Origin: Cordylochernes scorpioides | Lineage: Eukaryota; Arthropoda; Arachnida; Pseudoscorpiones; Chernetidae | Direction of reading: 5' to 3' | Length of the DNA: 64,000 bases | Assembly (NCBI GenBank): GCA_030710605.1 | Contig: CP092863.1 | Span: 62,642,508 to 62,706,507 of the forward strand | In this document: positions 1,184 through 61,112 of the stretch, piece by piece | How positions within the stretch are numbered: the first letter of the stretch is position 1 | Layout: every line of letters starts with the position of its first letter | Position numbers and translations under genes: made by a program | Notes under the pieces: generated by a model | Seen by the model: the letters and a program-made list of their open reading frames with translations, nothing else | What the model was told of the DNA's origin: nothing | Databases searched by the model: none

Positions 1184-1600
1184 ATGCAACCAAGCATTTT
1201 TCTTTCTTTTTCTCACCATACAACAAGACTTTTTCATTTTTCTTTTGTGCCACCCAGCCTTCACTTTGATTTCATTCAACTTCATTTTATATTTTTTATT
1301 TTTGATTTCTCAAAAGACCTCATGGAATTCCCTCGCTTTCCTTCCCAATCTCGAGCGAAATGGTAATTAGGCAATTCATTTCTTTTTTCACCAATGCAAC
1401 AAAGCATTTTTTCTTTTTTTTCTCACCACACAACAAGGCATTTTTCTTTTTTTGCAACCACGCCTTCACTTTGATTTCATTCAACTTTATTTTATTTTTA
1501 TTATATTTTTGATTTCTTCAAAAGACCTAATGACTTCCCTCGACTTCCATTCCCAATTTCGAGCAGTAATATAATTAGGCATTTCTCCTTTCACTATGTA
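1184..1600. repeat. Imperfect tandem duplication, unit about 209 bp
   Basis: Two diverged copies lie head to tail, about 1184-1392 and 1393-1600. Landmarks recur in the same order with an offset of 208-210 bases: a GCAACaAAGCATTTTT-like start, a CTTCACTTTGATTTCATTCA block, a CAAAAGACCT block, and an ATTAGGCA end. The copies differ by many substitutions and small indels, so the duplication is old. Short open frames across it are not credible genes. Confidence 0.75.
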
Positions 1601-1719
1601 CCATAGTATTCATTTTTTGTTTCACAAATACAATTTTTGATTTCTATTAATTATAAGCAAACTATATAGCATTAATACCATTCTTTTTTTTTTCTTATAT
1701 CCTTACCAATGCTTGTATA

Positions 1720-2045
1720 TGTTCTACCGTGTTAGGGTAAAGGTTCGAGCTGCAGTGAGAACTATCAATTAATAATTTATTTTAATAAGTCCAAAAATTA
1801 CATACAATTATAAGAGGCAGATGGAGCACAGTTTTTACTCCACCAGCGCCTAGAGTATTATATAATGGAAGGAACCACCGCTGGTTGTAGCGACGACGGT
1901 AAACAGCCAGCGAGATCAGGCGGTGTTCGAAAAGTGCGCGCGCAGCCCCTGGTGGCGACGTCACGGTCGGCGCGCATGCGCGGCGGCGGCGGTCACGTGG
2001 GAAGCACCGGCGTGGGACGTCGCCCGCTGGCTGCCTCTTATCTCA
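1720..2045 (-). repeat. 3' LTR of the Ty3/Gypsy element (326 bp)
   Basis: This is the downstream LTR of the minus-strand element. It carries a TATA-like TATATAAT stretch around 1858-1866 and an AATAAA-type signal near 1780. The U3 side is strikingly GC-rich and holds three motifs that match known animal transcription factor sites: CACGTG (1994-1999, E-box), GCGCATGCGC (1972-1981, NRF1-type palindrome) and GACGTCA (1957-1963, CRE-type). Factor binding is inference from motif only. Confidence 0.93.
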
Positions 2046-2062
2046 TGCCCCCCCTGGAGATT
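2046..2062 (-). promoter_or_regulatory. Polypurine tract
   Basis: Immediately upstream of the 3' LTR in element orientation lies a purine run containing seven consecutive G (plus-strand C at 2048-2054). Position and composition fit the plus-strand primer of reverse transcription. Confidence 0.8.
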
Positions 2063-2495
2063 GGGACTTGGGACCGATCCAACGTAGTTGCTATAACGCG
2101 GGTTCGGTTCTCGGGTTCGAGGGGATAAGGTCTGCTGATGTTGAGCTGAGTTGGGTGGGGTGGTGTACGGTGGAGGCACGAAAGGTCGTAAGAATCTGCG
2201 ATTACGGCGAAGAAGGCGTCCGGCGTCGGTCCGGATGAGGTAGCTGCGACCGCGTGGAAGTTGTTCGAGAACCTCAGCAAGGAGGGTCCAATGTTTTGTG
2301 CGGTGATCCTGGACACGGACTATTGCTCCCACTTCCAAATGTGAGAGTGGCTTGGCGTTGCGATTGTATCGCTTGAGGGCTTTCTGTCTTAAGTTCTGGG
2401 CTCGTTGATCGCATTCTGAAATCCTTGTTCTCCATTCCTTGGCAAACTGACTACGGTGAAGCGGTAGCTTGGTACGTGTCGGGGCACCAACACAA
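2046..2495 (-). pseudogene. Integrase C-terminal region, out of frame with the main pol frame
   Basis: The end of the polyprotein lies in another minus-strand frame. It carries the segment beginning TKLPLHRSQFAKEW and ending near RRNRRFLRPF, which is the usual chromodomain-free C-terminal tail of this Gypsy group, rich in basic residues. The main frame loses this similarity around 2487-2495, right after the GRSPAQI block, so a one-base indel there is the simplest explanation. Integrase lacking this tail would keep its core but lose DNA-binding surface. Confidence 0.8.
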
Positions 2496-5400
2496 TCTGC
2501 GCTGGACTTCGTCCCTCTGCTTTGGGCGTGTTTCGGAACTCCATCAAACTTTCTAAAAATGTGTCGGACTTGAGATTCCCATTGGTGGTGGTCTTGCTGA
2601 TTAGGTACTTTATCGCTTTTACGGCCGCTTCGGCAAGTCCATATGATTGAGGAAAGTGTGGAGATGAGGTGGAGTGCTCGATGTTCCAACGCTTTGTCCA
2701 ACTCCGAAACTCTTGAGAGGAGAATTGGGGACCATTGTCGGATGTGAGTATCTCTGGGATGCCGTAATCTGCCATCCACTTTTGAAGGTGACGGATGACC
2801 GTGGTGGACGTGGGGGCTCTGCCACATTGCGTCACGTTGATCCAACCTGAAAAGCGGTCGACCATAACGAGATATTGGTATCCAGCGTGCGAAAAAAGGT
2901 CGCAGGAAACATGTTGAAATGGGTAGCTAGGCGGCGGGTCGGAATAGAGTGGTTCTTTCTGTTGCGAGGGTAGATAGGCTGAACACTCGGCACACGTTTT
3001 TACTACGTTCCGGATGTCATTAGTGATGCTCGGCCAAAAGACAGATTGGCCAGCGCGTCGAAGAGTCCGGTCTTGGCCTTGATGCGAAGCATGGAGTATT
3101 TTTAGCACTTCTGAGCGTAATGGTGTTGGGATGAGTAGGCGAGAGCCTAAGAAAACGAGTTCTTCGCGTACGCTTAGTTGGTGCCATACTCTCCAGTAGG
3201 GGCGAAGATCTTCGTCGAGGTCTTCTTTACGTTGAATCTTTTGAGGGATGATATTGCGTATACGTTTGTATTCTCCATCATGCTCTGCGGCTGCTCTGAT
3301 TTGTCGTATTAACGAATCCTCCATTACCCTGGATCCGTCGACCGGGTCTACTACTGCAGCGGCAATGAGAGGAGCGGGATCAGAATCAGGATGATCATCG
3401 GTATCGTAAGCGTCGGGAACTGGGGATGGGTGGCGAGAGAGCACGTCGACAACGGTATGTTTCTTTCCCGGACGCCAAACTGCCGTAATGAGGTACGAAG
3501 TCAGCTTTTCCTTTAGCCGGAGGAGCCTTGGGTTTTCTATCTCGTCCAGAGTTTTGGAGTTCAGTATGGGAATAAGGGGACGGTGGTCGACTATAAGTTC
3601 GAAATGAGATCCCATAAGAAATAACTTGCATTTCTTGGCTGCCCACACGACAGCTAATAACTCAATTTCCGTGGCGCTATACCGGGACTCTGCAGGAGTC
3701 ACATGGCGGGATCCTACCTGGAGAAGTCTCCATTGACTATCAGGTTGTTGTTGATAAAGGGCATATCCTAGTCCCTGGGTCTGTGCTGCGTCCGTTTCTA
3801 GGCGGAGGGGTTGTCCTGGGGAGAACTGTGCTAGGATGCGTGAGCTGCAGAGTTCTTGAATGACTGCGTCAAAAGCTCGCTGGTGGGGGTTCTCCCAAAC
3901 GAAGGCGGCTTTGGCTGACAAAAGTGATCGGATTGGCGCGGATAGCTCGGTTAGATGATGGGAAAAGGCCTCAAACTGTTGAACAAGGCCGTTAAAGGAA
4001 CGCACGTCGGTCTTGTTGGTTGGTATCGGGAAATTCTTTAGAGCGGAGTACAAATGTGGAGAAGGTGTGTAACCGGAAGAATTTATACGGAAGCCGCACC
4101 AGTCGACTTCTGGCTGAGCGAATACGAACTTCTTCTGGTTGAGGGTGATTCCATGTTCCTGACACCGGGAAATGACCTGTCGAACACGTTGGACGTGTGT
4201 TTTGTAGTCTGAATCGAAGATAATGATGTCCTCTACCACTTTTTCTACGTTCTGGATTCCAAATAGGGCTTCGTTTCCACGACGGTTGTGCTCGTCTCCG
4301 GCGGAACACAATCCCATCACGTTGCGACAATAGCGGTAACTTCCCCATGGTGTGATGAAGGTGGTTAGTTTTTTACTCTTTTCATCGAGGGGGACTTGCC
4401 AATAACCGTGACGGGCATCTAGCGTGCTGAAAAACTGCATGCCTGGTGGGATGCGAGCAACAACCTCGCGGGGTACCCTGACTGGATAGGCGGGTCGTCG
4501 GACGTATTTGTTCAATCCGGTGAGGTCCACGGTTATGCGCGGTTCTGATGAGCCTTTTTTCGGGACGACTACCATAGGATGGCACCAATCGATGGCTTCG
4601 CCGACGGGTACCTGTTCGATTATCCCTTTCGCCAACATGGTATCGAGTTGAGTTTTGACAGGGTCTCTCCAGTGAAAGGGAACGTTGTATGCCCGGTAGC
4701 GTTTGCAAGGAACGGCATCTTTAACTAGTTCGATAGACATGGGGGGTCCTTGCATGGGTTTTAACACTGTGTCGTCGAACGCTCTAGCATAATGGGTAAG
4801 GATAGACTGCTTATCGATCTCATTGGCTCTCACCGGGGTCGGCGGGAACGTTAGAACTTGTCCGTTGGTTATGGCATTGACGATCATTGAATGGGGCCAG
4901 TTATCCGGCAGAAGTCCTAAGGCTTTGCATCCGCTCTTGCTCAAGAGAGGGGCGTTCAGGTGCTTGCAGACTCCAACGGTAGTACTGTAGGTTTTCCCGT
5001 TGAGATGCAGAGCCGCGACGAACGATCCACAAGGACTTAAGCTGATGCCGTTGGCTCCTACGCAAGGGACGTTCTTCGGGTTGAGTGCAGATCGGGTCTG
5101 CTCATCCAGTAACAGGAATTCTGATTCTGGGATTAGATCCAGATCTGACCCCGGGTCCGCCAGCCAACGGATTTGGTGTAACTTATAGTTGATATCGGTC
5201 GGAATGGTTATGAGTTCGTTGCGTACTCCAGCTGCAACAACTGTGTTTGAGGGTCCTGGTTGGGACTGATTGTTTCTGGTTGCGGGTGGCGGGATATTAG
5301 GTTTGGTTGTGGGTTTCCGTTTCAGTTGTCGGCAAACCCTTCCGTAATGCCCGGTGATGCCGCATTTGTTACACTCTATGTCTTTTGCTGGGCACTGGTC

Positions 5401-12907: not shown

Positions 12908-13674
12908 TTAGTATAATATAAAAAGCCAACAATGAAGAATGAATGTAAGATAAAAAGCCAACAATGAAGAGTAAATATGATATAAAAAGCCAACAATAAA
13001 GATTGAATGTAAGATAAAAAGCCAACAATGAAGAGTGAATGTAATATAAAAAGCCAACAATGAAGAATAAATGTAAGATAAAAAGCCAACAATGAAGAAT
13101 GAATGTAAGATAAAAAGCCAACAATGAAGAGTAAATGTAATATAAAAGCCAACAATGAAGAATAAATGTAAGATAAAAAGCCAACAATGAAGAGTAAATA
13201 TAATATAAAAAGCCAACAATGAAGAATAAATGTAAGATAAAAAGCCAAAAATGAAGAGTAAATATAATATAAAAAGCCAACAATGAAGAATGAATGTAAG
13301 ATAAAAAGCCAACAATGAAGAGTAAATGTAATATAAAAAGCCAACAATGAAGAATAAATGTAAGATAAAAAGCCAACAATGAAGAGTAAATATAATATAA
13401 AAGCCAACAATGAAGAGTGAATGTAAGATAAAAAGCCAACAATGAAGAGTAAATGTAATATAAAAAGCCAACAGAGTGAATGTAAGATAAAAAGCCAACA
13501 ATGAATAGTAAATGTAATATAAAAAGCCAACAATGAAGAATGAATGTAAGATAAAAAGCCAACAATGAAGAGTAAATATAATATAAAAAGCCAACAATGA
13601 AGAGTGAATGTAAGATAAAAAGCCAACAATGGAGAGTAAATATAATATAAAAAGCCAACAATGAAGAGTAAATC
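12908..13674. repeat. 32-bp minisatellite array 1, about 24 units
   Basis: Head-to-tail units of the form ATAAAAAGCCAACAATGAAG plus GARTGAATGTAA alternate between GAT- and TAT-starting versions, giving a 64-bp dimer pattern. One unit (near 13467) is shortened to GCCAACAGAGTGAATG by loss of 8 bases. The minus strand has no stop codon in any frame over most of the array, so long hydrophobic open frames arise; these are repeat artefacts. The right edge abuts the 5' end of an HL-D element. Confidence 0.95.
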
Positions 13675-23330: not shown

Positions 23331-23973
23331 CTAGATGAATGGCCCGGGCAACGCCCGGGTTTTACCCGAGTGCGTATATATTTTAAAAATGTTTTAATTA
23401 AAATACTATTCGTTACAATTATAAATTGGCGCCGTGGATGTCTCTCTTGTGAAACGTCCCGCCCCCAAACTGTGTGTGTCTTGAAAATATAAAAATGTGA
23501 AAGGAAAAATATGTCCAGGGTAGCCTAGTGGTCATGGCATCTGCCCGGTAAGCGGAAGGTCGTGGGTTCGATTCCCATCCCTTGACACTTTTTTTATTTT
23601 ATCCATTCTGACCAAAATCTATCCGTGAACTTCACACAGAGAGAATAAGGCAATTATATAAGTAGATAATCCAAATTGTGCCTTATCACACACAATTTTT
23701 TTATTTGGCCGTATTACCTTGTGTTTATAATCTATGACGTAATGCCGGCGGCGCGCGCCCGTTGGCTGCCGGCGAGCACGTGACCTCCCTGTGCGCGCGC
23801 ATCCGTGACAGAACCGGCCGGCCCATGACGGTCGTGACTATATATATAATGGATGGATAATAATAATAATAATTATTATTATTATTATTATCATTAGATA
23901 ATGATATTGATCATAATGATGATGCGCGCGCATCCGTGACAGAACCCATGACGGTCGTGACTATATATGTTGA
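23331..23973 (-). mobile_element. Helitron-like HL-C unit 1 carrying a tRNA-like gene
   Basis: In minus orientation it starts TCAACATATATAGTCACG at 23973 and ends CATTCATCTAG at 23331 after the hairpin CCCGGGC-GTT-GCCCGGG. The 5' part has GATGCGCGCGCATC and an ATTATT tract. A 73-base tRNA-like sequence lies in the plus orientation at 23514-23586. It joins unit 2 head to tail at 23973/23974. Confidence 0.75.
23514..23586 (+). tRNA. tRNA-like sequence (probable pseudogene or SINE head), nominal anticodon GGT
   Basis: A cloverleaf can be drawn: acceptor TCCAGGG/CCCTTGA with one mismatch, D arm GCC/GGC with A box TAGCCTAGTGGTC, anticodon stem TCTGC/GCGGA with loop CCGGTAA, and T arm with a perfect B box GGTTCGATTCC. 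Position 33 is C rather than the invariant T, and GGT is not a usual eukaryotic anticodon, so a functional tRNA is doubtful. The internal Pol III promoter looks intact and a T7 run follows two bases after CAC. Confidence 0.6.
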
Positions 23974-24633
23974 CTAGACGAATGGCCCGGGCAAGGCCCG
24001 GGTTTTACCCGAGTGTGTATATATTTTTAAAATGTTTTAATTAAAATACTATTCGTTAAAATTATAAATTGGCGCCGTGGATGACTCTCTTGTGAAACGT
24101 CCCGCCCCAAACTGTGTGTGTCTTGAAAATATAAAAATAAAAATGTGAACGGAAAATATGTCCAGGGTAGCCTAGTGGTCATGGCATCTGCTCGGTAAGC
24201 GGAAGGTCGTGGGTTCGACTCCCATCCCTTGACACTTTTTTTATTTTATCCATTCTGACCAAAATCTATCCGTGAACTTCACACAGTGAACTTCACACAG
24301 AGAGAATAAGGCAATTATATAAGTAGATAATCCAAATTGTGCCTTATCACACACTATTTTTTTATTTGGCCGTATTACCTTGTGTTTATAATCTATGCGT
24401 AATGCCGGCGGCGCCCGCCCGTTGGCTGCCGGCGAGCACGTGACCTCCCTGTGCGCGCGCATCCGTGACAGAACCGGCCGGCCCATGACGGTCGTGACTA
24501 TATATATAATGGATGGATAATAATAATAATAATTATTATTATTATTATTATCATTAGATAATGATAATGATCATAATGATGATGCGCGCGCATCCGTGAC
24601 AGAACCCATGACGGTCGTGACTATATATGTTGA
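23974..24633 (-). mobile_element. Helitron-like HL-C unit 2 carrying a tRNA-like gene
   Basis: Tandem neighbour of 23331-23973, 660 bp, with the same start and end signals (TCAACATATATAG at 24633, CGTCTAG at 23974). The body is about 97% like unit 1, including the tRNA-like segment. Confidence 0.75.
24161..24233 (+). tRNA. tRNA-like sequence, second copy
   Basis: Differs from 23514-23586 by C to T in the anticodon loop (TCGGTAA) and T to C in the T loop (B box GGTTCGACTCC). Same flanks and same T-run after CAC. Both copies moved with, or were duplicated with, the host repeat. Confidence 0.6.
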
Positions 24634-46043: not shown

Positions 46044-48852
46044 ATAACAAAAATATGTATAAAAATAGCCTTCGAATCGTTCACTGGAACGCGTGTAGTC
46101 TCCGAAACAAAAAACAACAATTTTCAGAATTCCTGAACGACCACGACATCGACATCGCACTAGTGTCAGAAACCTGGCTTAAGCCGTGCCATAATATGAG
46201 GATTCAAAACTTCATCACCCTCCGCAACGACAGACTAACCCGACAAGGTGGTGGAACTGCCATTTTCATCCACAAGAAGTACAGCCATGCACCTATTCAT
46301 GCCACCACCTCAAGCCTGGAAACAACAGGAATTTCAATCAAAAACAAAAACGGGTTAAATATGAACCTGTATTCGTGCTACAAACCACCAAATACCTATC
46401 TAGATCAAACCGATATCTATAACATTTTTTCAACGGACACACCGACCATCATAGCAGGGGACCTAAACTGCAAACATCCTGCCTGGGGTTCCACCACCAC
46501 TAACCCAAGCGGGAGAAGGCTCCAAAACGCAATCAACGTTATGGACCTAGATGTGAGCTACCCCGACGAACCTACTCATGACTCACCTCCAGACATCATT
46601 GATATCGCCGTGCACAAAAACATCTCCCAAAGCGTATACTCTAAAGTCCTGCACGAACTAACCTCTGATCATCTCCCAGTGCTACTTGTGTTACAGGATT
46701 TCAAAATCTCCTACTCAAATACAAAAATAAAAATTACAGATTGGGCCCTATTTAAGTACAAAATGGAAATCGCTGAACCTCCTGAACTGATCCTAGATAC
46801 ATCTTCAAAAATAGACGAGGCCATTACACACATTGAAGAACAAATGGTGCAAAATTTGAAAGATTCAACAAAATATAAGGACCCGGAACTAGAACGAAGA
46901 TATCCACCTCACATTAAAGAAAAAATACGATCCACCAACAGACTAAGAAAAAAAATGAAAAATACTTGCGACCCCCGAGATAAATCAGCCTACATGACGG
47001 CCCGGAGAGAATCACAGAAACTTACAAGAGAGCACGATAACACCAGCTGGGACCACTTTATCGAAAACTTGAAAGTCACGGACCAAACCATATGGAAAGC
47101 CATCAAACGATTATCCAACTCTGAAAAACAAGAAATAACACTGAAGACAAACAATGGGCAGACACTAACCACAGAAGAAGCAGCTGAATCATTTGCCAAC
47201 AACTATGAAAAACAGTTCACCCCCAATCCCTATACATCCCACTCCAAACCTACTCGTACATACATCAAACGTGTGAATTCATACATGAAAAAAAATAAAG
47301 AAACAGGACTAGAACCAACAAACATTGGTGAAATAAAAGCGATTATTGAATATATACCAAATAAAAAAGCTCCCGGAATCGACGAATTACCTAATGAAGC
47401 TCTCAAACTGCTCCCTAATCATATACTAGCATCAATAACCGAAATATTTAACGCCTCACTGCAGCTTGCCCACTTCCCTGACAGATGGAAAACGTCCATT
47501 ATCTGTCCCATACTTAAAAAAGGAAAATCCATCCATGAACCAACAAGCTACAGGCCCATCTCACTGCTACCTGCCATCTCAAAACTATTCGAAAGAATTG
47601 TTTTAAGAAGACTCAGAAAATCCCTCGAAGAAAAGAATCCACTCAGACCCGAACAATTTGGCTACCAAGCCAAACACTCAACATTGCACCAGCTAGTAGT
47701 TGTCACTGAAAAAATAAGAAAAGCCATGGACCTAGGCCAAATAACAGGAGCCGTATTCTTCGATATCGCCAAAGCATTCGATAAAGTCTGGCACGAAGCC
47801 CTTCTCTACAAAATGTGCAAAAAGCACCTTCCTGGAGACATCATAAAAATAACGCAAAACTTCTTAACAAATAGAACATTCAAGGTACGAGTCAAAAATG
47901 AACTTTCAACAGCTAGGAACATCCTTGCCGGGGTCCCCCAAGGATCAGTCACAGGACCAACCTTATTTGACATATATATAGACGACTTCCCCTGTATTGA
48001 AGACACCTCTTTACACCTATTTGCCGATGATACCGCCATTTTAGCCTCAACATATAACTTCGACAATCTCCACATGAAACTCCAAGAGGCCTGCATCTTT
48101 TCCACGCTCTGGTGTAAGGAATGGCGAGTCACAATGAACCCCCAAAAAAGTGAAGCAATCATTTTTTCCAGAAAAAAAGACAAAATTAAGAAACCTTTAG
48201 ATGAAGTTTTGTCTTCGAAGACAATATTAAATGGAAAGAGAACATCCGATACCTAGGGATGACCCTAGACGAGCACCTAACCTTCAAAAAACACATCGAA
48301 AACAGAATTAATTTGGCGAAAGCTGCCCAACACCGACTATCCCTACTTCTAGGACCAAAAAGCAAATTATCCCTTCATTGCAAAAGAACCTTTTACACTT
48401 CAATAATAAGACCAATACTCATATACGGCCACCCAATTTTTATGACAGCACATAAGACCATCCTTAAAAAGCTAGAAGTATTTGAAAATAAAATGATCAG
48501 AAAAATCATGTCTCCACCCTGGTTCGTTCGGAACACAATCCTCAGGAACGATCTAAATATCGAAAACATCAATGACTACATTATTAGACAATCATTTAAA
48601 TTTTACGAAAAATCCGAAAAATTAGAAAATCCCACCTTTAAGGAAGCCACAAACTACAAATGCGGAAAAAGGAAAATAAGAAATTTGAAACCTAGACAAA
48701 TTCTCCATCAATTAAGCCAGAATGACGAAAAGTGGAAAAAAAGGAAAAACAAACCCACCTTGAATATCAAACAAGCCCGAAAAAACCTTCTCAAGAAAAA
48801 TATCCCCAAGGACCTGAGAAACCGGACCCAACGTCATCATTATAAATTATAA
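46040..48852 (+). pseudogene. LINE 1 ORF2, endonuclease and reverse transcriptase, one frameshift
   Basis: Starts at ATG 46040 inside ATGA. Endonuclease landmarks: VHWNACSLRNK, VSETWLKP, AGDLNCKHPAWGS and LTSDHLPVL (first ~230 residues). RT landmarks: KKAPGIDELPNEALK, YRPISLLPAISKLFERIV, GAVFFDIAKAFDKVWH, GVPQGSVTGP and FADD at 661-664. A frameshift lies near 48190-48205; the new frame resumes with YLGMTLDEHLTFKKHI and ends at 48852. Total about 937 codons, in the normal range for Jockey ORF2. Confidence 0.9.
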
Positions 48853-48966
48853 TTGTAAATGAACCCCTGTACATAACCACTCCACTCAGTTTATTGTAAA
48901 TATGATGATCTAGGTTGCTCTTTTTGAGCGGCACCTAATAAAGTTATTTGGAACTGGAACTGGAAC

Positions 48967-49475
48967 TACAAACATTGATTTATATATATATAGATATAAA
49001 ATATATTTTTCGAGCAAACATATCCACTCTCTCTACTGAATATATTTTTAAAAAGATATATATAAATAAAAAATATCTAGAGATAAACTACACGATCTTA
49101 GCCAAAAGGCCGAGAAACGATATTTTATATATTGAAATGACCTGGCTCCGTGTGTGTCTTCTGCTCGAGTGAATGTTTCGCAGGGAGAATTTTGTTCCTG
49201 CCTACTGAAAATTATTATCTGGCTTCGCCCGTGGTCTGTTTTAGTGAATATTCCCCTAAAGAATTTTCTTCATGTCAATCAAGCATGATACAGCAATATT
49301 GTCATCATCATTTCTGACTAAAAAAATAATGTTGCTCAGTACCTGGTTATTTATAATTTTTCTTGGTTAAAGCGCGACAAAAAATTCTTCCAGATTTAAC
49401 TCTCTGTCCTGTTCAAATTTCAGCGAGTTTAGTTACATATTGAGGGCGTGCATAGCCGACAAACATATATATATA
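48967..49475 (-). mobile_element. Helitron-like HL-E copy, 3'-truncated, with U2 fragment
   Basis: Reads in minus orientation from GTTTGTCGGCTATGCACGCC (49470) through the body to CGAGCAAACATATCC near 49011, where LINE 1 begins soon after. It aligns with 24981-25450. Confidence 0.68.
49088..49121 (-). ncRNA. U2 snRNA 5' fragment, second copy
   Basis: The minus strand begins ATCGTTTCTCGGCCTTTTGG and continues CTAAGATCGTGTAG. It carries the same substitution and 2-base deletion as 25324-25360, so both descend from one captured fragment. Confidence 0.85.
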
Positions 49476-49910: not shown

Positions 49911-49946
49911 TCTATATATATAAAATTGAATGTCTGTCTGTCTGTC
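49911..49946 (+). mobile_element. Left part of an HL-B element interrupted by a retroelement cluster
   Basis: TCTATATATATAAAATTGAA then TGTCTGTCTGTCTGTC. The element resumes at about 57166 with TACTCTATAGATTCAAAAAC. Compared with the uninterrupted copy at 61113, the 7.2 kb between lies within the TGTC tract. Confidence 0.85.
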
Positions 49947-50018
49947 TCCTCGGTAGTATAGTGGTCAGTATTCCCGCCTGTCACGCGGGCGACCGGGGTC
50001 CGATTCCCCGCCGGGGAG
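49947..50018 (+). tRNA. tRNA-Asp (GTC)
   Basis: 72 bases with acceptor TCCTCGG/CCGGGGA (one G-T pair), discriminator G, anticodon stem CCCGC/GCGGG, loop CTGTCAC with anticodon GTC, and T stem CGGGG/CCCCG. The T loop reads TCCGATT where TTCGATT is invariant, so the B box has one substitution. A T7 run follows. It is fused to a retroelement tail (50019-50096), so it is probably a SINE head or retrocopy, not a native gene. Confidence 0.9.
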
Positions 50019-50096
50019 TTTTTTTGGGGCTCAAAAATCATTCATTTTGGTTAGCAGCCCCGTAAAATAAAGATATTTTCTCTCTGTCTGTCTGTC
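49947..50096 (+). mobile_element. tRNA-Asp-derived SINE-like element, ~150 bp
   Basis: Head is the tRNA-Asp unit; after TTTTTTT comes a tail with stem-loop GGGGCT...AGCCCC (50026-50061), GTAAAATAAAGATATTTTCT and a CTGT tract. The same tail ends both ORF1-only elements (51578-51638, 57098-57165). Both flanks are TGTC/CTGT repeat, so the insertion target was the microsatellite. Retroposition is inferred from the shared tail. Confidence 0.8.
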
Positions 50097-50134
50097 ATAT
50101 ATATATATATATATATATATAGATCGCTCTTGAC

Positions 50135-51396
50135 ATGAATCCTGGCAAGAAGAAAAAGAAGGCCTACAAGCCTACAACCCGCATCGTGAACGTCGCCGAC
50201 CTGGAGAGGGAAGATGAGATGGTGATCTCACGCAACTGCAGCATCCTGAGCTCCATTGGCCATCCTGCCCTGAAATCCCTGCATGAGGACCTGATACGCT
50301 ACATCGCCTCGCGGACTGAATGATCAAGGCCCTCGCTACCAATGTAGAGAACCTCACTGACACCCTCGAGTCCTTCGCAGAGTTGGACGAAATTGAGGAG
50401 GCCAACAAGCCCAAGACTGCTTGCCGCGGCACTCAAACCTGCCCTGCTCCTTCCTGCAATGAAACCAGCTCCCAGACTGACCCAATCAAGCCCGCCACTC
50501 CTGCTCCTGCTGCTCTCCCTGCCAAGAAGCCTGCCTCCTCCCTGCCTGCTCCTGCTCCAACCAAAAGGAAGCAGTCTGAAGCTCCCAACCCGCCTGCAAA
50601 GAGGACAAACCTGAATGGTCCTTCAAAACCTGTGCCTTCCCACGTCTCCAAGCCTGCGGCCGCCCAAGTGATCCTTCATGGAGAAAAATCGGCGTCCCAC
50701 ACAGTGGTCATCTCAGATGACCCACAGGCTGACCCAAGGGAGATGCTGAAAACAGTCCGCGCTGCTCACACTCTCCCCCAAGGCGTTTGGGCCTCCCTGC
50801 GCACCAAGGGGAAGCTGGTCCTCCATTCCAGCAATCCTGACACCATCCCTGAAGTTACAACCTCCCTGGCCAGCAAGTTGAATGGAATGAAGGTCCGCCA
50901 GCAGAAGGAGATCCTGCCACGGATCTGCCTCTTCAAAGTGGATGAGGAGACATCCAACTCCACAATTGAGGAGACCTTCCTGGAAACCGCTGCTGTTAGA
51001 AAACTTCCTGGGGACAAGGTGGTGCGCGTGGCGCACCGTTCTGCACCCAGAAACGGGACCTGCACCGCCTTCATCGAGGTGGACCTCAAGACCTTTAGAG
51101 CCCTGGGCGTTCGCGGGAGGATCGTGGTGGATGGAGTAATCCTCAACTTCGAGGAGTCCATCCGCGCCCGCGTCTGCTTCCGCTGTTGTGGCTTCGGCCA
51201 CAACTCTGCCCAATGCACCAGAGCTCCTAAGTGCTTCCACTGCGGTGAAGACGGCCATGAAGGCCGAACCTGCCCATCCATTGCTGACCAGCGCACCTCC
51301 AAATGTGCCAACTGCTGCTCCCAGGGCCTTCCTGACAAGCACGAGGCGAGAGCCTCAAGCTGCCCCATCCTGAAGTCTAGGGCCCTCAAGTTCTAG
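50135..51396 (+). pseudogene. LINE-type ORF1 (Gag-like zinc-knuckle protein), copy 1, frameshifted
   Basis: Near-identical to the intact copy at 55654-56916. One A is lost in the run after CGGACTGAA, giving a TGA at about 50321 after 62 codons; the rest of the frame reopens at 50320 and runs to 51396. Domains are as described for copy 2. The GC-rich codon use contrasts sharply with the AT-rich neighbours. About 16 differences separate the copies over some 1.5 kb. Confidence 0.88.
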
Positions 51397-51638
51397 GCTT
51401 CAAGGACCTTCTGCCTCCATTATCATCTGCCACTTCTCCTGGATTCCTGGCCTATTCAACGCACCCGCCTCACTGCACCCTGGCGCTATTCCCCTGCTTG
51501 CCTAACGTTTCCACCACCCCTGCGAGACATCTCCTGCTTCCACATCCTAGGGTCCCTTGCCACCTGACATCGATTTTGGGCTCAAAAATCATAACTTTTG
51601 GTTAGTAGCCCGTAAATAAAGATATTTTCTCTGTCTGT
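51397..51638 (+). promoter_or_regulatory. 3' UTR and stem-loop tail of ORF1-only element, copy 1
   Basis: ~180-bp UTR, then hairpin GGGCT...AGCCC at 51578-51611, an AATAAAGATATTTTCT block and CTGTCTGTCTGTC. It matches the tail of the SINE at 50026-50096 nearly base for base. Such shared tails are how SINEs are recognised by a partner LINE reverse transcriptase. Confidence 0.8.
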
Positions 51639-51664
51639 CTGTCCCAAATAGAGTAAGTAATAAT

Positions 51665-52852
51665 ATGCCACCGATTGTAATTAAATCGACGATCGGACCA
51701 ACCGGCGAGAAACTATGCATAATCGAAGCCTCCTTAATAACGAAGATCCTAGACAAATGTGGAATCGAGTACAAACTTGAGGAAACGGTTCAATCAAAGA
51801 AGAGAACTCGCGGCTCCCAATCGGATGACTCAAGATCGCCAACTAGGAGCGAGCGTAAACTGAAGACGCCTAGAATGGACATCGACGAACAAAGTCCCGC
51901 CACTGAAATTTCTCAACAAATGAACGTAGCTCACCCACCGCAAGACGATGAAGAAAATAACGACAACGATGGCCCATGGACCACAGTCACTAACGTGAAA
52001 AAACCGAGAATTCCTCCTGTTATTGCAGAAAATGTAGCAGATTGGAAGCTTCTTTGCCAAGAACTAAAAGGCTTGTGCACGGAACCATTCCAAGTCACGA
52101 TTTCTGGCAAAAAGCACATAATTAAATCGAAAAACATAGGCGACTTCAAAAAAATCAGGGAGTATGTACAGAAAAATAATGGAGGATATTCCTACAGACT
52201 ACAGGAGGAAAAACCACTGAAAGTGGTATTGAAGGGGGTAACAACAGCCTTCAAAGAAGAAGACGTCGTAACTGAACTGGTCTCAATGGGCTTCACTGAG
52301 GTCATTGTCAAAAGACTCCATAGACAATCGACCAAAATACCGATGAATATAGTCCTAGTAGAGCTACCGAAAAATGAACACAATAAACGAATCTATGGAA
52401 TAACTGAAATACTTTACCAAAAAATAGTCGTGGAATCATTCAGGACTACAAAACGAGTGACCCAATGCTTTAACTGCCAGGGTTTTGGGCATGGCCAGCT
52501 AAACTGCTTTTTGAAGCCCAAATGCGTCAAGTGTGCTGAAGAACATCATTCGAAGGATTGTCCAAGAAAGTCGAAACAGCTCCCACCAAAGTGCGCTAAC
52601 TGTGGAGAGGCGCACACAGCCAATTACCGCGGATGCCCAAATTTTCCGAAGCCACAACAACAGCAGTTAAAGCCTCCCAGACAAAACTCCCCTAACACCA
52701 TACCTCAAGCAAGCTCCACTAAAACAGAAGAGGCAACTGTTGAAAAACAAAAGGCAAGTTACGCGGAAACTACAAAAAAGAAAACTACTCGTTCTGACAC
52801 CAGGGAACTGTGCGAAAAGTTATTAGAAATTATCAAAACTTACCTACAATGA
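51665..52852 (+). CDS. LINE 2 ORF1, Gag-like RNA-binding protein (395 aa)
   Basis: Intact frame. The N-terminal ~170 residues are charged and Ser/Pro-rich. A PRE_C2HC/RRM-like region follows (PLKVVLKGVTTAFKEEDVV to YGITEILY, about 180-255), then three knuckles: CFNCQGFGHGQLNC, CVKCAEEHHSKDC and CANCGEAHTANYRGC (about 268-325). The tail is Gln/Thr/Lys-rich. In Jockey-type elements this protein packages the RNA and targets it to the nucleus. The stop TGA overlaps the ORF2 ATG as ATGA. Confidence 0.92.
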   Translation: MPPIVIKSTIGPTGEKLCIIEASLITKILDKCGIEYKLEETVQSKKRTRGSQSDDSRSPTRSERKLKTPRMDIDEQSPATEISQQMNVAHPPQDDEENNDNDGPWTTVTNVKKPRIPPVIAENVADWKLLCQELKGLCTEPFQVTISGKKHIIKSKNIGDFKKIREYVQKNNGGYSYRLQEEKPLKVVLKGVTTAFKEEDVVTELVSMGFTEVIVKRLHRQSTKIPMNIVLVELPKNEHNKRIYGITEILYQKIVVESFRTTKRVTQCFNCQGFGHGQLNCFLKPKCVKCAEEHHSKDCPRKSKQLPPKCANCGEAHTANYRGCPNFPKPQQQQLKPPRQNSPNTIPQASSTKTEEATVEKQKASYAETTKKKTTRSDTRELCEKLLEIIKTYLQ

Positions 52853-55474
52853 AAGGCAAATTACCTTTAAAAATCGTTTTCTGGAATTGCAACGGAATCA
52901 AACTCAAAAAAGAAGAATTCCTACAGTTTTTAGAAGAAAACTCAATAGACATGGCACTGCTCAGTGAAACACACTTAAAACCATCTGTCGACCTCAAACT
53001 CACAAACTATCATACAATAAGAGACGATAGAATCGTTGGAAGGGGCGGTGGAACGGCAATAATTCTAAAAAACTATCTTAAATATAAAAAAGTGCTGATT
53101 CAAACATCTAACATGGAAAACACCACAATTCTAATGAAACCAGATGGAAGGGCAGTAGTGCAGATATCGTCAATCTATAAGAAACCCGATCTACCACTCC
53201 AGGAGGAAGATCTGAATCTCTTGTTAGAGAATAATCAATCAGTAATCGCTGCAGGAGACTGGAACTCCAAGCACCCTCTTTGGGGCTCAAGAACCTCCAA
53301 TAATAGTGGAACCGTGCTTCATAATTTTTCCGAAAAAGAAAACCTGGACATTGTTGCACCTTCTTCACCCACGCACTACAGTCCTTTGGGAAATCCAGAC
53401 TTTTTAGACATCGCAATTCTTAGAAACATTCCCTGGGCTTCGAGAATTAAGACCCTGGATGCCTTATCTTCAGATCACCTCCCAGTAATCCTAGAGCTGA
53501 CCTGCCCGAAGGATGAATTCACGACTAGGGCTTGCCGACTCACTAACTGGGTACACTTCCAACAAGACTTAATTTCCAGTACGCCTCCTAGAGTACCCTT
53601 GAAAACGGAAGCCAATATTGACTCAGCAGTGACCATACTAAATGATAAAATCTACAACAGCTACTCAAAAAACACAGTTATATCATCCTCTTCATCAAAA
53701 CAGAACCCCTCGACCAAGGCCTTGATAAAAGAAAAGAATAAAGCTCGTAAGAGATGGCAAGCAACCTGGGATCCAGCCCATAGAGCCATTTATTTAAACC
53801 TACAGGGAAAAGTTAACAAAGCCCTCAAATCCGACTCCACCGAGAACTGGAATCAATTCATACACAAGATTGAATCAAGCCCAAAGGACTTCTGGAGAAA
53901 AACAAAACCCATCAGGAAAAAAACGGAAAGGATCTCAAGTTTAGTAACGAACGGCAAAACCTTATTGACCGACAAAGAAATCGGAAATGAACTTGCAGAA
54001 CACTTCTCCAACCAGTTCTCCAAGGAAAAAGAAGAAGACCAACCAAATATAACTTATAATCACGAACAAGAAAAAATGCTCACAATGACGACACCAAATG
54101 AAGTCAAAGAAGTAATTAAATACTTAGCTAACCACAAAGCTCCTGGCCATGACAATATCACTCCGCAAATGGCCAAGAATCTTCCCATCAAATGGATTGT
54201 ATTTCTAGCTGGAGTATTCAACGCCGCACTGCACTTGTGTTACTACCCCAAAGTCTGGAAGCATGCTATCATAATTCCAATTCCAAAAAAATCCGCTAAA
54301 TCCCCTGAAGATCTAAGACCTATCAGCCTCCTCTCCACCATCGGCAAAATTTACGAAAGAATTATTCTACGTAGACTTCAGATGTACTTGGACAACTCTA
54401 ACTTCATCATCCCGCAGCAATTCGGATTTAGAAGGGGGCACTCAACAACTCACCAACTCATTGCAGTTCTGGACTATATCCTGATAAGAAGATCCCACAA
54501 GGAAGTGGTAGGTGCTGTCTTTCTAGATTTTGCGAAAGCATTTGATAAAGTTTGGCATAATGGCCTTATAAAGAAACTCACAAAACACCAGTTTCCAAGT
54601 GACATTATCAATTTTATGCAGAATTATCTACAGGGCAGGACATTTTCAGTCAAGCAAGGAAATTTTATAACTGAACCAAAGCCAATCCAGACTGGAGTAC
54701 CTCAAGGCTCTATCCTCGGACCCTACCTTTTCAATATTTACATTAATGACATCCCACTGCACTCTAAATGTAAACTTAAGCTCTTCGCAGATGACACAGC
54801 AATTTTATTCAACTCCAAATCAGTCAACCTATTGGTTACTCAGCTTCAGAATTACCTAAATGACATAATCAAATGGTGCGATGAGTGGAAACTAGACATT
54901 AACCCAACTAAGACTCAAGCAATAGTTTTTCCCCCAAGAGATAACAAAAAATTCAAGCCACAAACCAACTTGACAGTAAACTCAAGCACTATTAGTTGGG
55001 CCGACCATGCCAAGTATCTTGGTGTCACTTTGGATTCGAAATTTAAATTTAACCTACATGTCCAAAACACCATAAGAAAGGCAAAGATAGCCAAAATATC
55101 TCTATCAAGCCTGCTTAATTTTAAAAGTAATTTAACAACAAAGCAATACATTCACGTTGTACAAAACCTGCATTCTACCCATCATCACGTACGCACTACC
55201 AGTCTGGGGCAAATATATCACACCTACGGATAAAAAAAGAATAGATGCCTTCATGAGGATTTGCTTACGAACCACTATAGGAGCCCCATTCAATCTTTCA
55301 AACAAAATTCTCAAAGAAGATCTCAACCAGCCTAATATAGAAGAGATTTATCAAGACTCTGCGACAAGACTATTCTCGCAATTTCAAAAATCCTCAAATC
55401 CAACTATACAAGAAATTGTTCAAAACCAAGGTGACCTCAGCCACCAAATCCGACGACCTGGACCCAATGGCTAG
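52849..55474 (+). pseudogene. LINE 2 ORF2, endonuclease and reverse transcriptase, one late frameshift
   Basis: The start MKGKLPLKIVFWNCNG at 52849 lies in the ATGA overlap. Endonuclease motifs: NCNGIK, LSETHLKP, AGDWNSKHPLWGS, LSSDHLPVI. RT motifs: HKAPGHDNITPQMAK, LRPISLLSTIGKIYERII, GAVFLDFAKAFDKVWH, GVPQGSILGP and FADD at 646-649. The frame ends prematurely at 55233 after a shift near 55165; the second frame (from about 55160, TCILPIITYALPVWGKYI) carries the remaining thumb/C-terminal part to 55474. All catalytic motifs are upstream of the break. Confidence 0.92.
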
Positions 55475-55653
55475 CTGACAGCCAAACACCCAACAACTGC
55501 CCTCCTGTAAGGTTCGGGGGGCCACTCCAGCATCACAACTCGCCATGTGTAAATAATATGGACAAGGTGACTCGCGAGCTGTGCTCGAATGTAACACCTG
55601 AAATTGAGATGAAATAAATAAATAAATCTGTCCCAAATATCGAGTATTAAGTT

Positions 55654-56916
55654 ATGAATCCTGCCAAGAAGAAAAAGAAGGCCTACAAGCCTACAACCCG
55701 CATCGTGAACGTCGCCGACCTGGAGAGGGAAGATGAGATGGTGATCTCACGCAACTGCAGCATCCTGAGCTCCATTGGCCATCCTGCCCTGAAATCCCTG
55801 CATGAGGACCTGATCCGCTACATCGCCTCGCGGACTGAAATGATCAAGGCCCTCGCTACCAATGTAGAGAACCTCACTGACACCCTCGAGTCCTTCGCAG
55901 AGTTGGACGAAATTGAGGAGGCCAACAAGCCCAAGACTGCTTGCCGCGGCACTCAAACCTACCCTGCTCCTTCCTGCAATGAAACCAGCTCCCAGACTGA
56001 CCCAATCAAGCCCGCCACTCCTGCTCCTGCTGCTCTCCCTGCCAAGAAGCCTGCCTCCACCCTGCCTGCTCCTGCTCCAACCAAAAGGAAGCAGTCTGAA
56101 GCTCCCAACCCGCCTGCAAAGAGGAGAAACCTGAATGGTCCTTCAAAACCTGTGCCTTCCCACGTCTCCAAGCCTGCGGTCGCCCAAGTGATCCTTCATG
56201 GAGAAAAATCGGCGGCCCACACAGTGGTCATCTCAGATGACCCACAGGCTGACCCAAGGGAGATGCTGAAAACAGTCCGCGCTGCTCACACTCTCCCCCA
56301 AGGCGTTTGGGCCTCCCTGCGCACCAAGGGGAAGCTGGTCCTCCATTCCAGCAATCCTGACACCATCCCTGAGGTTACAACCTCCCTGGCCAGCAAGTTG
56401 AATGGAATGAAGGTCCGCCAGCAGAAGGAGATCCTGCCACGGATCTGCCTCTTCAAAGTGGATGAGGAGACATCCAACTCCACAATTGAGGAGACCTTCC
56501 TGGAAACCGCTGCTGTTAGAAAACTTCCTGGGGACAAGGTGGTGCGCGTGGCGCACCGTTCTGCACCCAGAAACGGGACCTGCACCGCCTTCATCGAGAT
56601 GGACCTCAAGACCTTTAAAGCCCTGGGCGTTCGCGGGAGGATCGTGGTGGATGGAGTAATCCTCAACTTCGAGGAGTCCATCCGCGCCCGCGTCTGCTTC
56701 CGCTGTTGTGGCTTCGGCCACAACTCTGCCCAATGCACCAGAGCTCCCAAGTGCTTCCACTGCGGTGAAGACGGCCATGAAGGCCGAACCTGCCCATCCA
56801 TTGCTGACCAGCGCACCTCCAAATGTGCCAACTGCTGCTCCCAGTGCCTTCCTGACAAGCACGAGGCGAGAGCCTCAAGCTGCCCCATCCTGAAGTCTAG
56901 GGCCCTCAAGTTCTAG
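55654..56916 (+). CDS. LINE-type ORF1 zinc-knuckle protein, intact ORF1-only element copy 2 (420 aa)
   Basis: Residues 1-20 are Lys-rich (NPAKKKKKAYK). About 35-100 are predicted helical/coiled (LHEDLIRYIASRTEMIKALA, LTDTLESFAELDEIEEA). Residues 105-175 form an Ala/Pro/Ser/Thr-rich linker. About 205-345 resemble the folded domain before the knuckles of R1/I-type ORF1 proteins. Three CCHC-type knuckles follow: CFRCCGFGHNSAQC, CFHCGEDGHEGRTC and a longer CANCCSQ with H and C downstream. No ORF2 follows; the 3' UTR and stem-loop begin directly. Similarity to copy 1 starts at the ATG itself. Function is inferred: RNA binding in retrotransposition, acting in trans with an absent RT. Confidence 0.9.
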   Translation: MNPAKKKKKAYKPTTRIVNVADLEREDEMVISRNCSILSSIGHPALKSLHEDLIRYIASRTEMIKALATNVENLTDTLESFAELDEIEEANKPKTACRGTQTYPAPSCNETSSQTDPIKPATPAPAALPAKKPASTLPAPAPTKRKQSEAPNPPAKRRNLNGPSKPVPSHVSKPAVAQVILHGEKSAAHTVVISDDPQADPREMLKTVRAAHTLPQGVWASLRTKGKLVLHSSNPDTIPEVTTSLASKLNGMKVRQQKEILPRICLFKVDEETSNSTIEETFLETAAVRKLPGDKVVRVAHRSAPRNGTCTAFIEMDLKTFKALGVRGRIVVDGVILNFEESIRARVCFRCCGFGHNSAQCTRAPKCFHCGEDGHEGRTCPSIADQRTSKCANCCSQCLPDKHEARASSCPILKSRALKF

Positions 56917-57165
56917 GCTTCAAGGACCTTCTGCCTCCATTTCCATCTGCCACTTCTCCTGGATTCCTGGCCTATTCAACGCACCCGCCTCACTGCACCC
57001 TGGCGCTATTCCCCTGCTTGCCCAACGTTTCCACCACCCCTGCGAGACATCTCCTGCTTCCAGATCCTAGGGTCCCTTGCCACCTGACATCGATTTTGGG
57101 CTCAAAAATCATAACTTTTGGTTAGTAGCCCGTAAATAAAGATATTTTCTCTGTCTGTCTGTCTG
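56917..57165 (+). promoter_or_regulatory. 3' UTR and stem-loop tail of ORF1-only element, copy 2
   Basis: Same UTR as copy 1 with a few substitutions; hairpin GGGCT...AGCCC at 57098-57131, AATAAAGATATTTTCT, then CTGT repeats merging into the microsatellite of the host HL-B element. Confidence 0.8.
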
Positions 57166-57478
57166 TTTGTTTGTTTGTTTGTACTCTATAGATTCAAAAA
57201 CCATACATCCAATCGCCGTGAAATTTTGGGATATTATTAAGTATATCACCGGGAAGGTTTTTGAAAAATAATTTCATGAATATTTTGAATAACCTTAGAG
57301 TTACTTGCAGATTTGTAGATTTAACTCGCAAGCAGCGCCCCCATTGTGACGATGTTAACAAGTTTTCTTATCACTAAGTTTGTTATCTTAAATATTATTT
57401 ATCAAAAGTAAGATTATCTCAGGATGACACGGCAATGTGACACGGGAAAAAATGTTCACTAGATAAAACTATGATTTT
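57166..57478 (+). mobile_element. Right part of the interrupted HL-B element, 3'-truncated
   Basis: Continues the HL-B sequence (ACTCTATAGATTCAAAAACC, ATCGCCGTGAAATTTTGG, AACTCGCAAGCAGCGCC) after the retroelement cluster and stops at the start of the 32-bp array without reaching its hairpin. Confidence 0.78.
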
Positions 57479-58397
57479 CTATATGATATAAAAAGCCAAC
57501 AATGAGGAGTGAATGCAATATAAAAAGCCAACAATGAAGAATGAATGTAAGATAAAAAGCCAACAATGAAGAGTGAATGTAATATAAAAAGCCAACAATG
57601 AAGAATGAATGTAAGATAAAAAGCCAACAATGAAGAGTGAGTGTAAGATAAAAAGCCAACAATGAATAGTAAATGTAATATAAAAAGCCAACAATGAAGA
57701 ATGAATGTAAGATAAAAAGCCAACAATGAAGAGTAAATATAATATAAAAAGCCAACAATGAAGAATGAATGTAAGATAAAAAGCCAACAATGAAGAGTAA
57801 ATATAATATGAAAGCCAACAATGAAGAGTGAATGTAAGATAAAAAGCCAACAATGAAGAGTAAATGTAATATAAAAAGCCAACAGAGTGAATGTAAGATA
57901 AAAAGCCAACAATGAAGAGTGAATGTAATATAAAAAGCCAACAATGAAGAATGAATGTAAGATAAAAAGCCAATAATGAAGAGTGAATGTAATATAAAAA
58001 GCCAACAATGAAGAATGAATGTAAGATAAAAAGCCAACAATAAGGAGTGAATGTAATATAAAAAGCCAACAATGAAGAATTAATGTAAGATAAAAAGCCA
58101 ACAATGAAGAGTGAATGTAAGATAAAAAGCCAACAATGAAGAGTAAATGTAATATAAAAAGCCAACAATGAAGAATGAATGTAAGATAAAAAGCCAACAA
58201 TGAAGAGTAAATATAATATAAAAAGCCAACAATGAAGAGTGAATGTAAGATAAAAAGAAAACAATGAAGAGTAAATGTAATATAAAAAGCCAACAGAGTG
58301 AATGTAAGATAAAAAGCCAACAATGAAGAGTGAATGTAATATAAAAACCAACAATGAAGAATGAATGTAAGATAAAAGGCCAACAATGAAGAGTAAA
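57479..58397. repeat. 32-bp minisatellite array 2, about 28 units
   Basis: Same unit and GAT/TAT alternation as array 1. The 8-base-shortened unit (GCCAACAGAGTGAATG) occurs twice, near 57879 and 58290, about 411 bases apart, which equals 13 units minus 8 bases. The array therefore has a higher-order repeat. The right edge meets a Helitron-like 5' end. Confidence 0.95.
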
Positions 58398-58634
58398 TCT
58401 CTATATATATATAAAAGTCAATTTCTGTATGTCTGTCTGTTTCGCGATAAACTCAAAAACTACTGAACCAATTGGTACCATATTTTGCATGTCGCTTTTT
58501 ATAAACCTGAGGAAAATTTTCGGCTGCATTTTGATTAGTATTTTTGGCTATTTCTTTTTTTTCATTTGAAGAACTTTTTTTTACGCGGACTAATCCGGAA
58601 TGGAATGAATACCTAAATATGGCCATTTTTTTAA
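58398..58634 (+). mobile_element. Helitron-like 5' end, family HL-H
   Basis: TCTATATATATATAAAAGTC and a TGTC tract, then TTCGCGATAAACTCAAAAAC. This differs from the other families after the first 20 bases. No 3' end was found before 59168. Confidence 0.55.
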
Positions 58635-58705
58635 GCATCGGTGGTTCAGTGGTAGAATGCTCGCCTGCCACGCGGGCGGCCCGGGTTCGATTCCCGGCCG
58701 ATGCA
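58635..58705 (+). tRNA. tRNA-Gly (GCC)
   Basis: 71 bases. Acceptor GCATCGG/CCGATGC pairs perfectly, discriminator A, anticodon stem CTCGC/GCGGG with loop CTGCCAC (anticodon GCC), T arm CCGGG/CCCGG with invariant TTCGATT. A and B boxes are intact and a T12 run follows, a strong Pol III terminator. It could be a functional gene, or a copy carried by the surrounding repeat. Confidence 0.93.
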
Positions 58706-59864: not shown

Positions 59865-60685
59865 TTCGTTAGGCAAACTTTCACTCGGATAAATGTAATA
59901 TAAAAAGCCAACAATGAAGAATGAATGTAAGATAAAAATCCAACAATGAAGAGTAAATATAATATAAAAAGCCAACAATGAAGAATGAATGTAAGATAAA
60001 AAGCCAACAATGAAGAGTAAATATAATATAAAAAGCCAACAATGAAGAGTGAATGTAAGATAAAAATCCAACAATGAAGAGTAAATGCAATATAAAAAGC
60101 CAACAGAGTGAATGTAAGATAAAAAGCCAACAATGAAGAGTGAATGTAATATAAAAAGCCAACAATGAAGAATGAATGTAAGATAAAAAGCCAACAATGA
60201 AGAGTGAATGTAATATAAAAAGCCAACAATGAAGAATGAATGTAAGATAAAAAGCCAACAATGAAGAGTGAATGTAAGATAAAAAGCCAACAATGAATAG
60301 TAAATGTAATATAAAAAGCCAACAATGAAGAATGAATGTAAGATAAAAAGCCAACTATGAATAGTAAATATAATATAAAAAGCCAACAATGAAGAATGAA
60401 TGTAAGATGAAAAGCCAACAATGAAGAGTAAATATAATATAAAAAGCCAACAATGAAGAGTGAATGTAAGATAAAAAGCCAACAATGAAGAGTAAATGTA
60501 ATATAAAAAGCCAACAGAGTGAATGTAAGATAAAAAGCCAACAATGAAGAGTGAATGTAATATAAAAAGCCAACATTGAAGAATGAATGTAAGATAAAAA
60601 GCCAACAATGAAGAGGGAATGTAATATAAAAAGCCAACAATGAAGAATGAATGTAAGATAAAAAGCCAACAATGAAGAGTGAATC
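59865..60685. repeat. 32-bp minisatellite array 3, about 25 units, with a short Helitron-like remnant
   Basis: 59865-59890 is a piece of a Helitron-like 3' half (TTCGTTAGGCAAACTTTCAC). The array follows from about 59891. The shortened unit occurs near 60101 and 60510, again about 409 bases apart, matching the higher-order period of array 2. The right edge again meets a Helitron-like 5' end (HL-B). Confidence 0.95.
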
Positions 60686-60687
60686 TA

Positions 60688-61112
60688 TCTATATATATAA
60701 AATTGAATGTCTGTCTCTCTGTTTGTCTGCACTCTATAGATTCAAAAACCATACATCCAATCGCCGTGAAATTTTGGGATATTATTAGGTATATCACCGG
60801 GAAGGTTTTTGAAAAATAATTTCCTGAATATCTTGAATATCCTTAGAGTTATTTGCAGATTTGTAGATTTAACTCGCAAGCAGCTCCCCCATTGTGACGA
60901 TGATAACAATATATCGAGAGATTCAAATTTACGAGTTTCAAATTATCAAAATACATATATATTTTTTAAATAAGTTTTTAGAGAATTGTTTTAACAAATG
61001 TTCGCTAGACAAACCTTTACTCGGGTAAAACCCCGGGCGAAGCCGAGTACGTTTTATAAGTTTATAGAGAATTGTTTTAACAAATGTTAGTTAGACAAAC
61101 ATTCACTCGGGT
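60688..61112 (+). mobile_element. Helitron-like HL-B copy with degraded 3' end
   Basis: Starts TCTATATATATAAAATTG and has the HL-B body; an internal part is deleted after GATGATAACAA. A hairpin (CCCCGGGCGAAGCCGAG) is followed by GTACGTTTT in place of CTAG. A second partial 3' half follows to 61112. Confidence 0.65.

Follow-up and report, generated by a model that had tools for sequence, protein, structure and literature searches.

In Drosophila, HeT-A (together with TAHRE and TART) adds to chromosome ends, its elements stacking on one another; it codes only for a zinc-knuckle open reading frame 1 (ORF1)/Gag protein and obtains reverse transcriptase (RT) in trans. HAL1 of mammals is an ORF1-only derivative of a long interspersed nuclear element (LINE), namely L1, and ends in poly(A). 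Waldo and other microsatellite LINEs of the R1 clade are target-specific and carry an ORF1 with CCHC motifs, the Dictyostelium element TRE5-A and yeast Ty3 insert at a fixed distance from the promoter or start under the guidance of RNA polymerase (Pol) III factors, and the Drosophila elements 17.6 and 297, which have long terminal repeats (LTRs), prefer TATATA. Searches of an open-licence literature library listed no non-LTR element that targets TATA boxes or start sites. Here, a 64,000-nt stretch of the genome of the pseudoscorpion Cordylochernes scorpioides (C1:62642508-62706507; hereafter the window) was analysed, in which a tRNA-Asp unit, an ORF1-only element (copy A), a jockey-like LINE and a second ORF1-only element (copy B) follow one another within a single HL repeat, whose right part comes after copy B. 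These elements and their relatives probably represent a target-specific community of non-LTR retrotransposons, its integration sites being the places where transcription from TATA promoters is predicted to start.

To place the window elements in the genome, the 2.62-Gb C. scorpioides assembly (24 contigs) was searched with a 73-bp query from the tail of the ORF1-only elements; the best 40 of 1065 first-look candidates were scored and 30 loci were fetched, including the two of the window itself. At all 30 loci the ORF1 DNA joined the tail directly with no RT between them, some of the copies being 5'-truncated or interrupted. An intact frame was retained by 24 of 32 full-length copies under a strict length criterion, and these 32 copies differed pairwise by 0.6% on average and by 1.3% at most. 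The ORF1-only element is a real family and a spreading unit; the alternative named beforehand in the original prediction, that the copies are local deletions of a LINE, was rejected in view of the near-identity and intactness of these copies. Three protein searches with ORF1, each scoring only the 8000 or so candidates with most words in common and also limiting candidate length, gave 43 distinct matches, all from C. scorpioides (46-97% identity among the first 21) and none of them an L1 ORF1. Of these 43, 36 protein models were read; twelve end in ALKF as the window ORF1 does, and the remaining ones are truncated, joined to foreign sequence or have a different end. The encoded product, a putative RNA-binding protein, shows cysteine/histidine clusters by eye and no RT, and a Pfam search of the window proteins gave no zinc-knuckle match in it. 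The element's own 5' end usually lies about 10-13 bases before the ATG, at (A)TCGCTCTTGAC. In copy B this leader is replaced by a filler of 21 bases, and in copy A it is preceded by an (AT)n filler. A second subfamily, MAPRK, codes for a protein 73% identical and has its own copies and its own tail (L032, L049). Two candidate partners were rejected: P0033 as a full LINE, as its ORF1-ORF2 join crosses a foreign stretch and resembles by eye a predicted splice, and the RNase H domain of P0024, from which ORF1 is separated by about 30 residues of a repeat common across loci.

The insertion sites were compared in a set of 41 copies, 33 of which have a target site duplication (TSD) of at least 8 nt; among these 33, L013 was left out of site scoring owing to an indexing fault. 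Six more stood directly behind the tail of another element or a LINE end and were counted as nested, leaving 26 non-nested sites, 22 of which had enough flank to be scored. A TATAWW motif began between -37 and -29 relative to the 3' end of the TSD at 21 of these 22 sites, compared with 93 of 660 far-upstream windows (14%) from 15 long flanks. The motif stood at exactly -34 in 13 of 24 sites, and the adjacent 9-nt windows on either side held 0-2 hits; windows after the TSD are element sequence and offer no fair control. When the 26 sites were grouped by sequence, 10 clusters resulted, and 8 of the 9 scorable ones had the TATA box. Two short-flank sites (L009 and L015) carried TATAWW at -33, and three further insertions stood behind TATA: the window tRNA unit (-34, in HL), the element that opens the L051 stack (-34) and, at -32, the MAPRK element in L049. 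A TSD of at least 9 nt, in most cases 12-15 bp long, was present in 30 of the 41 copies; a TSD of at least 10 nt occurred in 21 of 30 copies but in only 5% of 870 mismatched flank pairs. A near-constant TSD length at a defined site, with TATA near -34, marks these as site-specific non-LTR insertions. Pol II starts transcription about 30 nt after the box of a TATA promoter, which puts the junction a few bases beyond the expected start. By sequence, the ORF1-only element, about 1.5 kb long with nearly no 5' untranslated region (UTR), inserts with a TSD of mostly 12-13 bp at places where a TATA box begins about 34 nt ahead of the TSD end.

The tail of these elements carries a stem-loop, which folded in both tail types (-11.7 kcal/mol with a weak z of -1.6, and -15.7 kcal/mol with z of -3.2). 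The hairpin tail was seen behind MNPAK ORF1, MAPRK ORF1, tRNA-Asp, tRNA-Glu and a head of 0.7-1.1 kb that contains no long ORF. These varied heads bear out the proposed non-autonomous family with a common hairpin tail, partly coding for ORF1 and partly non-coding. In L031-L048, 20 of the 26 tail blocks lay directly 3' of ORF1; the other six comprised two non-coding elements, one tRNA-Glu unit (L036), two tail-only stubs (L047 and L048) and one further tail (L031). The non-coding element starts with ATTCGACGGCGCGGG, has copies in L043 (TSD TGAGTGAGAGTGG) and L031, and gave a single match in Rfam, with an E value of 0.56. The tail had no match in viral contigs, a set that may leave out records of this genome. 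In the window, the tail block AATAAAGATATTTTCT was present in three exact copies and one with two mismatches, against 0.28 expected at up to two mismatches. The original prediction had placed this tail behind tRNA heads, ORF1-only units and a full LINE with ORF2, mostly in (TGTC)n; in the loci fetched, the first two placements were found and the last two were not.

The LINE nested in the window (51651-55627, plus strand) contains ORF1 at 51665-52852 with a PRE_C2HC domain, ORF2 at 52852-55230 with an APE-type endonuclease and RVT_1, an additional stretch in a different frame that stays open to 55474, and an (AAAT)n end. Its endonuclease, RT and PRE_C2HC domains are those of a jockey-clade LINE, and it is tentatively read as jockey-like. 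Its TSD is the 12-bp CTGTCCCAAATA at 51639-51650 and 55628-55639. Within the window and L001-L048, the 3' end of this LINE was found at only three places, each adjoining the TSD of an ORF1 element (window copy B, L004 and L023/L031), except for a match with two mismatches that lies in different surroundings in L019. LINE copies lacking most of ORF2, with different deletion joins, stand beside L004 and L031, namely at L050 3383-4848 (join from about 1289 to 3791) and L051 3541-5026 (join from about 1239 to 3737). The L050 copy lies at an HL TATA with TATAWW at -34 and other positions, its two TSD copies differing by one base, and the L051 copy lies within a stack at an LTR-like TATA site. A genome search with the LINE 3' end gave at least 31 matches including the window, a list known to be incomplete because the L050 and L051 copies are missing from it. 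Another copy (L078) stands behind an HL TATA with TATAWW at -32 and other positions and has a TSD between 5 and 11 nt; its anchor was placed by hand, which slightly lowered our confidence in the best explanation. The copy in L084 follows the unrelated TATATAAAAG (TATAWW at -36 and -34) and has a 12-nt TSD. The LINE copies with their own readable 5' flank, L050, L078 and L084, thus all stand behind TATA at a like distance, and the spacing suggests that L078 and L084 lack ORF2. In L073 the LINE follows a hairpin tail, and its TSD ACAACAACAATTA recurs at its 3' end in L053, between two hairpin tails; in L075, next to the L056 copy, a hairpin tail was present and the LINE start absent. Because LINE copies were found at TATA sites, at the LTR-like target and beside hairpin tails, the LINE family uses the same sites as the ORF1 elements. 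By sequence, the LINE, its ORF2-less derivatives, the non-coding element and the tRNA chimeras occupy one kind of site. A second LINE of the window (about 46070-48860), whose ORF2 is 36% identical to that of the nested LINE, was rejected as part of the system, since it ends in a GGAACT repeat and its tail is unlike the others.

The nested LINE is regarded as the best candidate donor of enzyme for the ORF1-only elements. The original prediction had called for an RT from an absent LINE; the ORF1-only units indeed hold none, whereas a LINE that shares their site, and may be the donor, is nested in the window. A second possibility, with the targeting as described above, is that the hairpin elements are driven by an unseen autonomous hairpin-tailed LINE and that the jockey-like LINE only shares their site, for example through a common tether to TATA-binding protein (TBP). 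The hairpin is kept across subfamilies and is absent from the end of the nested LINE, some LINE RTs need a 3' hairpin, and the searches covered the best 8000 or so protein candidates, within a length limit, and the best 40 of 1065 tails. Set against this, the full LINE that had been predicted to own the tail was not seen: no RT joined to the hairpin tail was seen at the 30 tail loci or, in a search with only three query proteins, at the 26 tails of L031-L048. Moreover, the site and TSD length of the hairpin elements match those of the jockey-like LINE. We regard such an unseen donor as conceivable, if somewhat short of probable.

The tRNA-Asp unit of the window had been described as a short interspersed nuclear element (SINE). 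It occupies 49947-50083 on the plus strand, with the tRNA called at 49946-50019 and matched by Rfam at 49947-50018 (55.4 bits), and its stem-loop GGGGCT...AGCCCC at 50026-50061 was assigned from the folding of a tail of this type. In a direct comparison, the tail of the unit is the one carried by the MAPRK ORF1-only element in L032 and differs from those of copies A and B. The tRNA-Glu unit in L036 (the same place as L028) joins half a hairpin. In both units the tRNA part ends with a T7 run, where a Pol III transcript would be expected to stop; the junctions to the tail lie at different points. Because of the T7 run and the different junction in the second unit, a chimera was preferred, and both tRNA units look like products of template switching. 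That the tRNA-Asp unit is instead a propagating SINE is suggested by its tRNA head, its shared tail and the TGTC on either side; against it, the T7 run should halt Pol III before the tail is reached, and the tRNA-Glu unit has a different junction, T7|ATTTTGG compared with T7|GGGGCTC, which is what template switching on the U-tails of pre-tRNAs should produce. A SINE is accordingly considered unlikely.

An endonuclease that merely favours AT-rich DNA bearing T and C, with the TATA box as a by-product of AT-rich repeats, would account for the AT-rich repeats seen as targets and for TSDs that often start with CT, TCT or TGTC; it does not fit the narrow peak, with 13 of 24 motifs at exactly -34 and nearly none in the flanking windows, and is judged improbable. 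Least credible is the original proposal of a (CTGT) microsatellite-specific system with an absent hairpin-tailed LINE, which is consistent with the TGTC/TGTT/TGTA tracts around the window elements and L003-L006, although CT repeats end 23 of 30 copies, TGTC merely follows the HL TATA, and other targets have TATA instead. Only 7 of the 30 copies end in CTGT, the window's two among them, and the tail query itself carried CTGT and so favoured such copies; the targets of L008, L010, L022 and L037 are not simple repeats. The CTGT/TGTC tract seen at this locus is real, but belongs to the HL target and not to the element family, and CTGT as a landing pad gives way to TATA about 34 nt before the TSD end as the common feature of the targets.

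Several observations weigh against TATA-directed integration. The tail sample, the best-scoring 40 of 1065, is small, young and biased by the query. The largest target cluster, most of it an LTR-like repeat in which TATAAAAACTCGTTGTTG precedes the insertion site, accounts for 14 of the 26 non-nested sites. The scorable site L024 lacks TATAWW at -37 to -29, as do the short-flank sites L011 and L017. In eight of the 41 copies a TSD of 8 nt is lacking: L012 and L040 nevertheless stand behind the LTR-like TATA, L007 has neither TSD nor TATA, L006, L014 and L038 have an interruption or a 5' truncation, one more is unreadable on its 5' side, and in window copy B the LINE stands between the element and its TSD. 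As for the LINE, 3' junctions were fetched for 20 copies, and by eye only 4 of them show the shared site: those of L056 and L069 lie at the LTR-like target, that of L053 adjoins a hairpin tail and that of L057 another LINE start. The 5' flank was found for three (L073, L078 and L084) of the nine of these 20 for which it was sought, and the (AAAT)n end of the LINE has no detectable similarity to the hairpin tails. The HL repeats, finally, are candidate promoters only and not proven ones.

In L032, L051+L031 and L049, three to five elements are stacked at a single site, with copies of one short TSD between them. In L051+L031 the order is ORF1, ORF2-less LINE, ORF1, non-coding element and MAPSRK ORF1, parted by copies of TTCCCGTTGGC(A/C); in L049, three copies of TTATCGTTTGACC surround the MAPRK and MNPAK elements and are followed by a jockey-like LINE, for which no TSD of its own was seen at this locus. 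That the newest element stands next to the TATA box is indicated by a single observation, the TSD of the LINE in the window: because it holds part of the filler preceding copy B (CCAAATA), the LINE arrived after B. The substitutions from the majority, nine in B and seven in A, are too few to settle the stack order. Fillers before the elements vary from 0 to about 45 nt. Those of L011, L042 and L044 contain CCCCGTTGG/CCCCGTCGG of the LTR-like repeat, their own targets being different; L034 and L036 have similar pieces in their fillers, but their own targets are such repeats. TCGGGTA is common to the fillers of L004 and L047 and, when part of the TSD is included, to that of L039.

On the preferred reading of TATA-directed integration, an endonuclease, most likely that of the LINE, would nick the target about 21 nt downstream of the point where the TATA box begins, directed by the TATA DNA or by bound TBP, and cDNA synthesis would begin on the (CT)n or (AAAT)n end of the RNA, often with microhomology. 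The 5' copy of the TSD would retain TATA and start site, so that the newcomer could be transcribed at once from a captured promoter, which is proposed as the simplest reading because the ORF1 element has no promoter room upstream of its ATG. The fillers would be leaders copied from earlier insertion sites; they fit promoter capture because L011, L042 and L044 carry LTR-like repeat sequence outside such targets. The ORF1-only units would spread with RT given in trans. The fuller proposal, that a TATA-recognising lineage includes ORF1-only and tRNA-only elements that capture their predecessor's promoter at each jump, that the stacks are the record of this and that the nested LINE is the donor for all, is offered tentatively.

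The layout of the original prediction, with a tRNA-Asp unit, two ORF1-only elements and a LINE in one HL repeat, was recovered with all parts at or within a few bases of where they had been placed. The parts of this HL locus are all on the plus strand. The left part of the HL target (49911-49946) contains a TATA run at 49913-49924 followed by TGTC; its end lies 34 nt after the first TATA, with TATAWW at -34, -32, -30 and -28 relative to 49946. Element A (50121-51630) consists of a short 5' leader, an ORF1 that starts at 50135 and is frameshifted by one base at 50319, a 3' UTR, a stem-loop at about 51578-51611 and the tail, and is flanked on both sides by CTGTCTGTCTGTC. The 21-base filler before copy B lies at 55633-55653, partly inside the TSD of the LINE. 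Element B (55654-57150) has an open ORF1 (55654-56916, 420 aa), a stem-loop at about 57098-57131 and the tail. The two elements are 99% identical, with 16 substitutions in about 1.5 kb, and 9 of the 12 coding substitutions are non-synonymous. Positions 57151-57478 hold the CTGT tract and the HL target's right part, by comparison with the HL copy at 60688, a relative that lacks the interruption and gives a picture of the empty site. Arrays of a 32-bp tandem repeat (AAAGCCAACAATGAAGAGTGAAT...) each adjoin the start of an HL repeat at 12914-13673, 57488-58398 and 59892-60684. Genes for tRNA-Thr and tRNA-Gly also occur within repeats, each followed by a T-run (window 23513-23588, 24160-24235 and 58635-58705; L005 1606-1676 and 1781-1851). 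A minus-strand stretch at about 49090-49120 appears to resemble the start of U2 small nuclear RNA and gave no Rfam match at the gathering score.

Compared with the described systems, the C. scorpioides elements are like HeT-A in coding for a cysteine-rich ORF1 only, with no RT at the 30 loci, and in being stacked; unlike HeT-A, they have TSDs of at least 8 nt in most copies (33 of 41) and lie at internal contig positions. The closest analogues of HAL1 are the ORF2-less LINE copies in L050 and L051, whereas the ORF1-only elements differ from HAL1 in their cysteine-rich ORF1, hairpin, (CT)n and target specificity. In contrast to Waldo-type LINEs, their insertions are not confined to a simple repeat. 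If the proposal holds, it would account for the activity of ORF1-only elements with almost no leader, would describe a natural RNA-templated machine inserting at a fixed distance from the TATA box, and makes it testable whether a LINE protein reads the TATA DNA itself or follows TBP. The 17.6 and 297 elements insert inside the TATA sequence, whereas those of C. scorpioides insert 34 nt downstream. Likewise, TRE5-A and Ty3, the latter an LTR element, go to Pol III genes, and the targets here are Pol II-type TATA boxes; the system would thus be a non-LTR counterpart of Pol III-guided integration.

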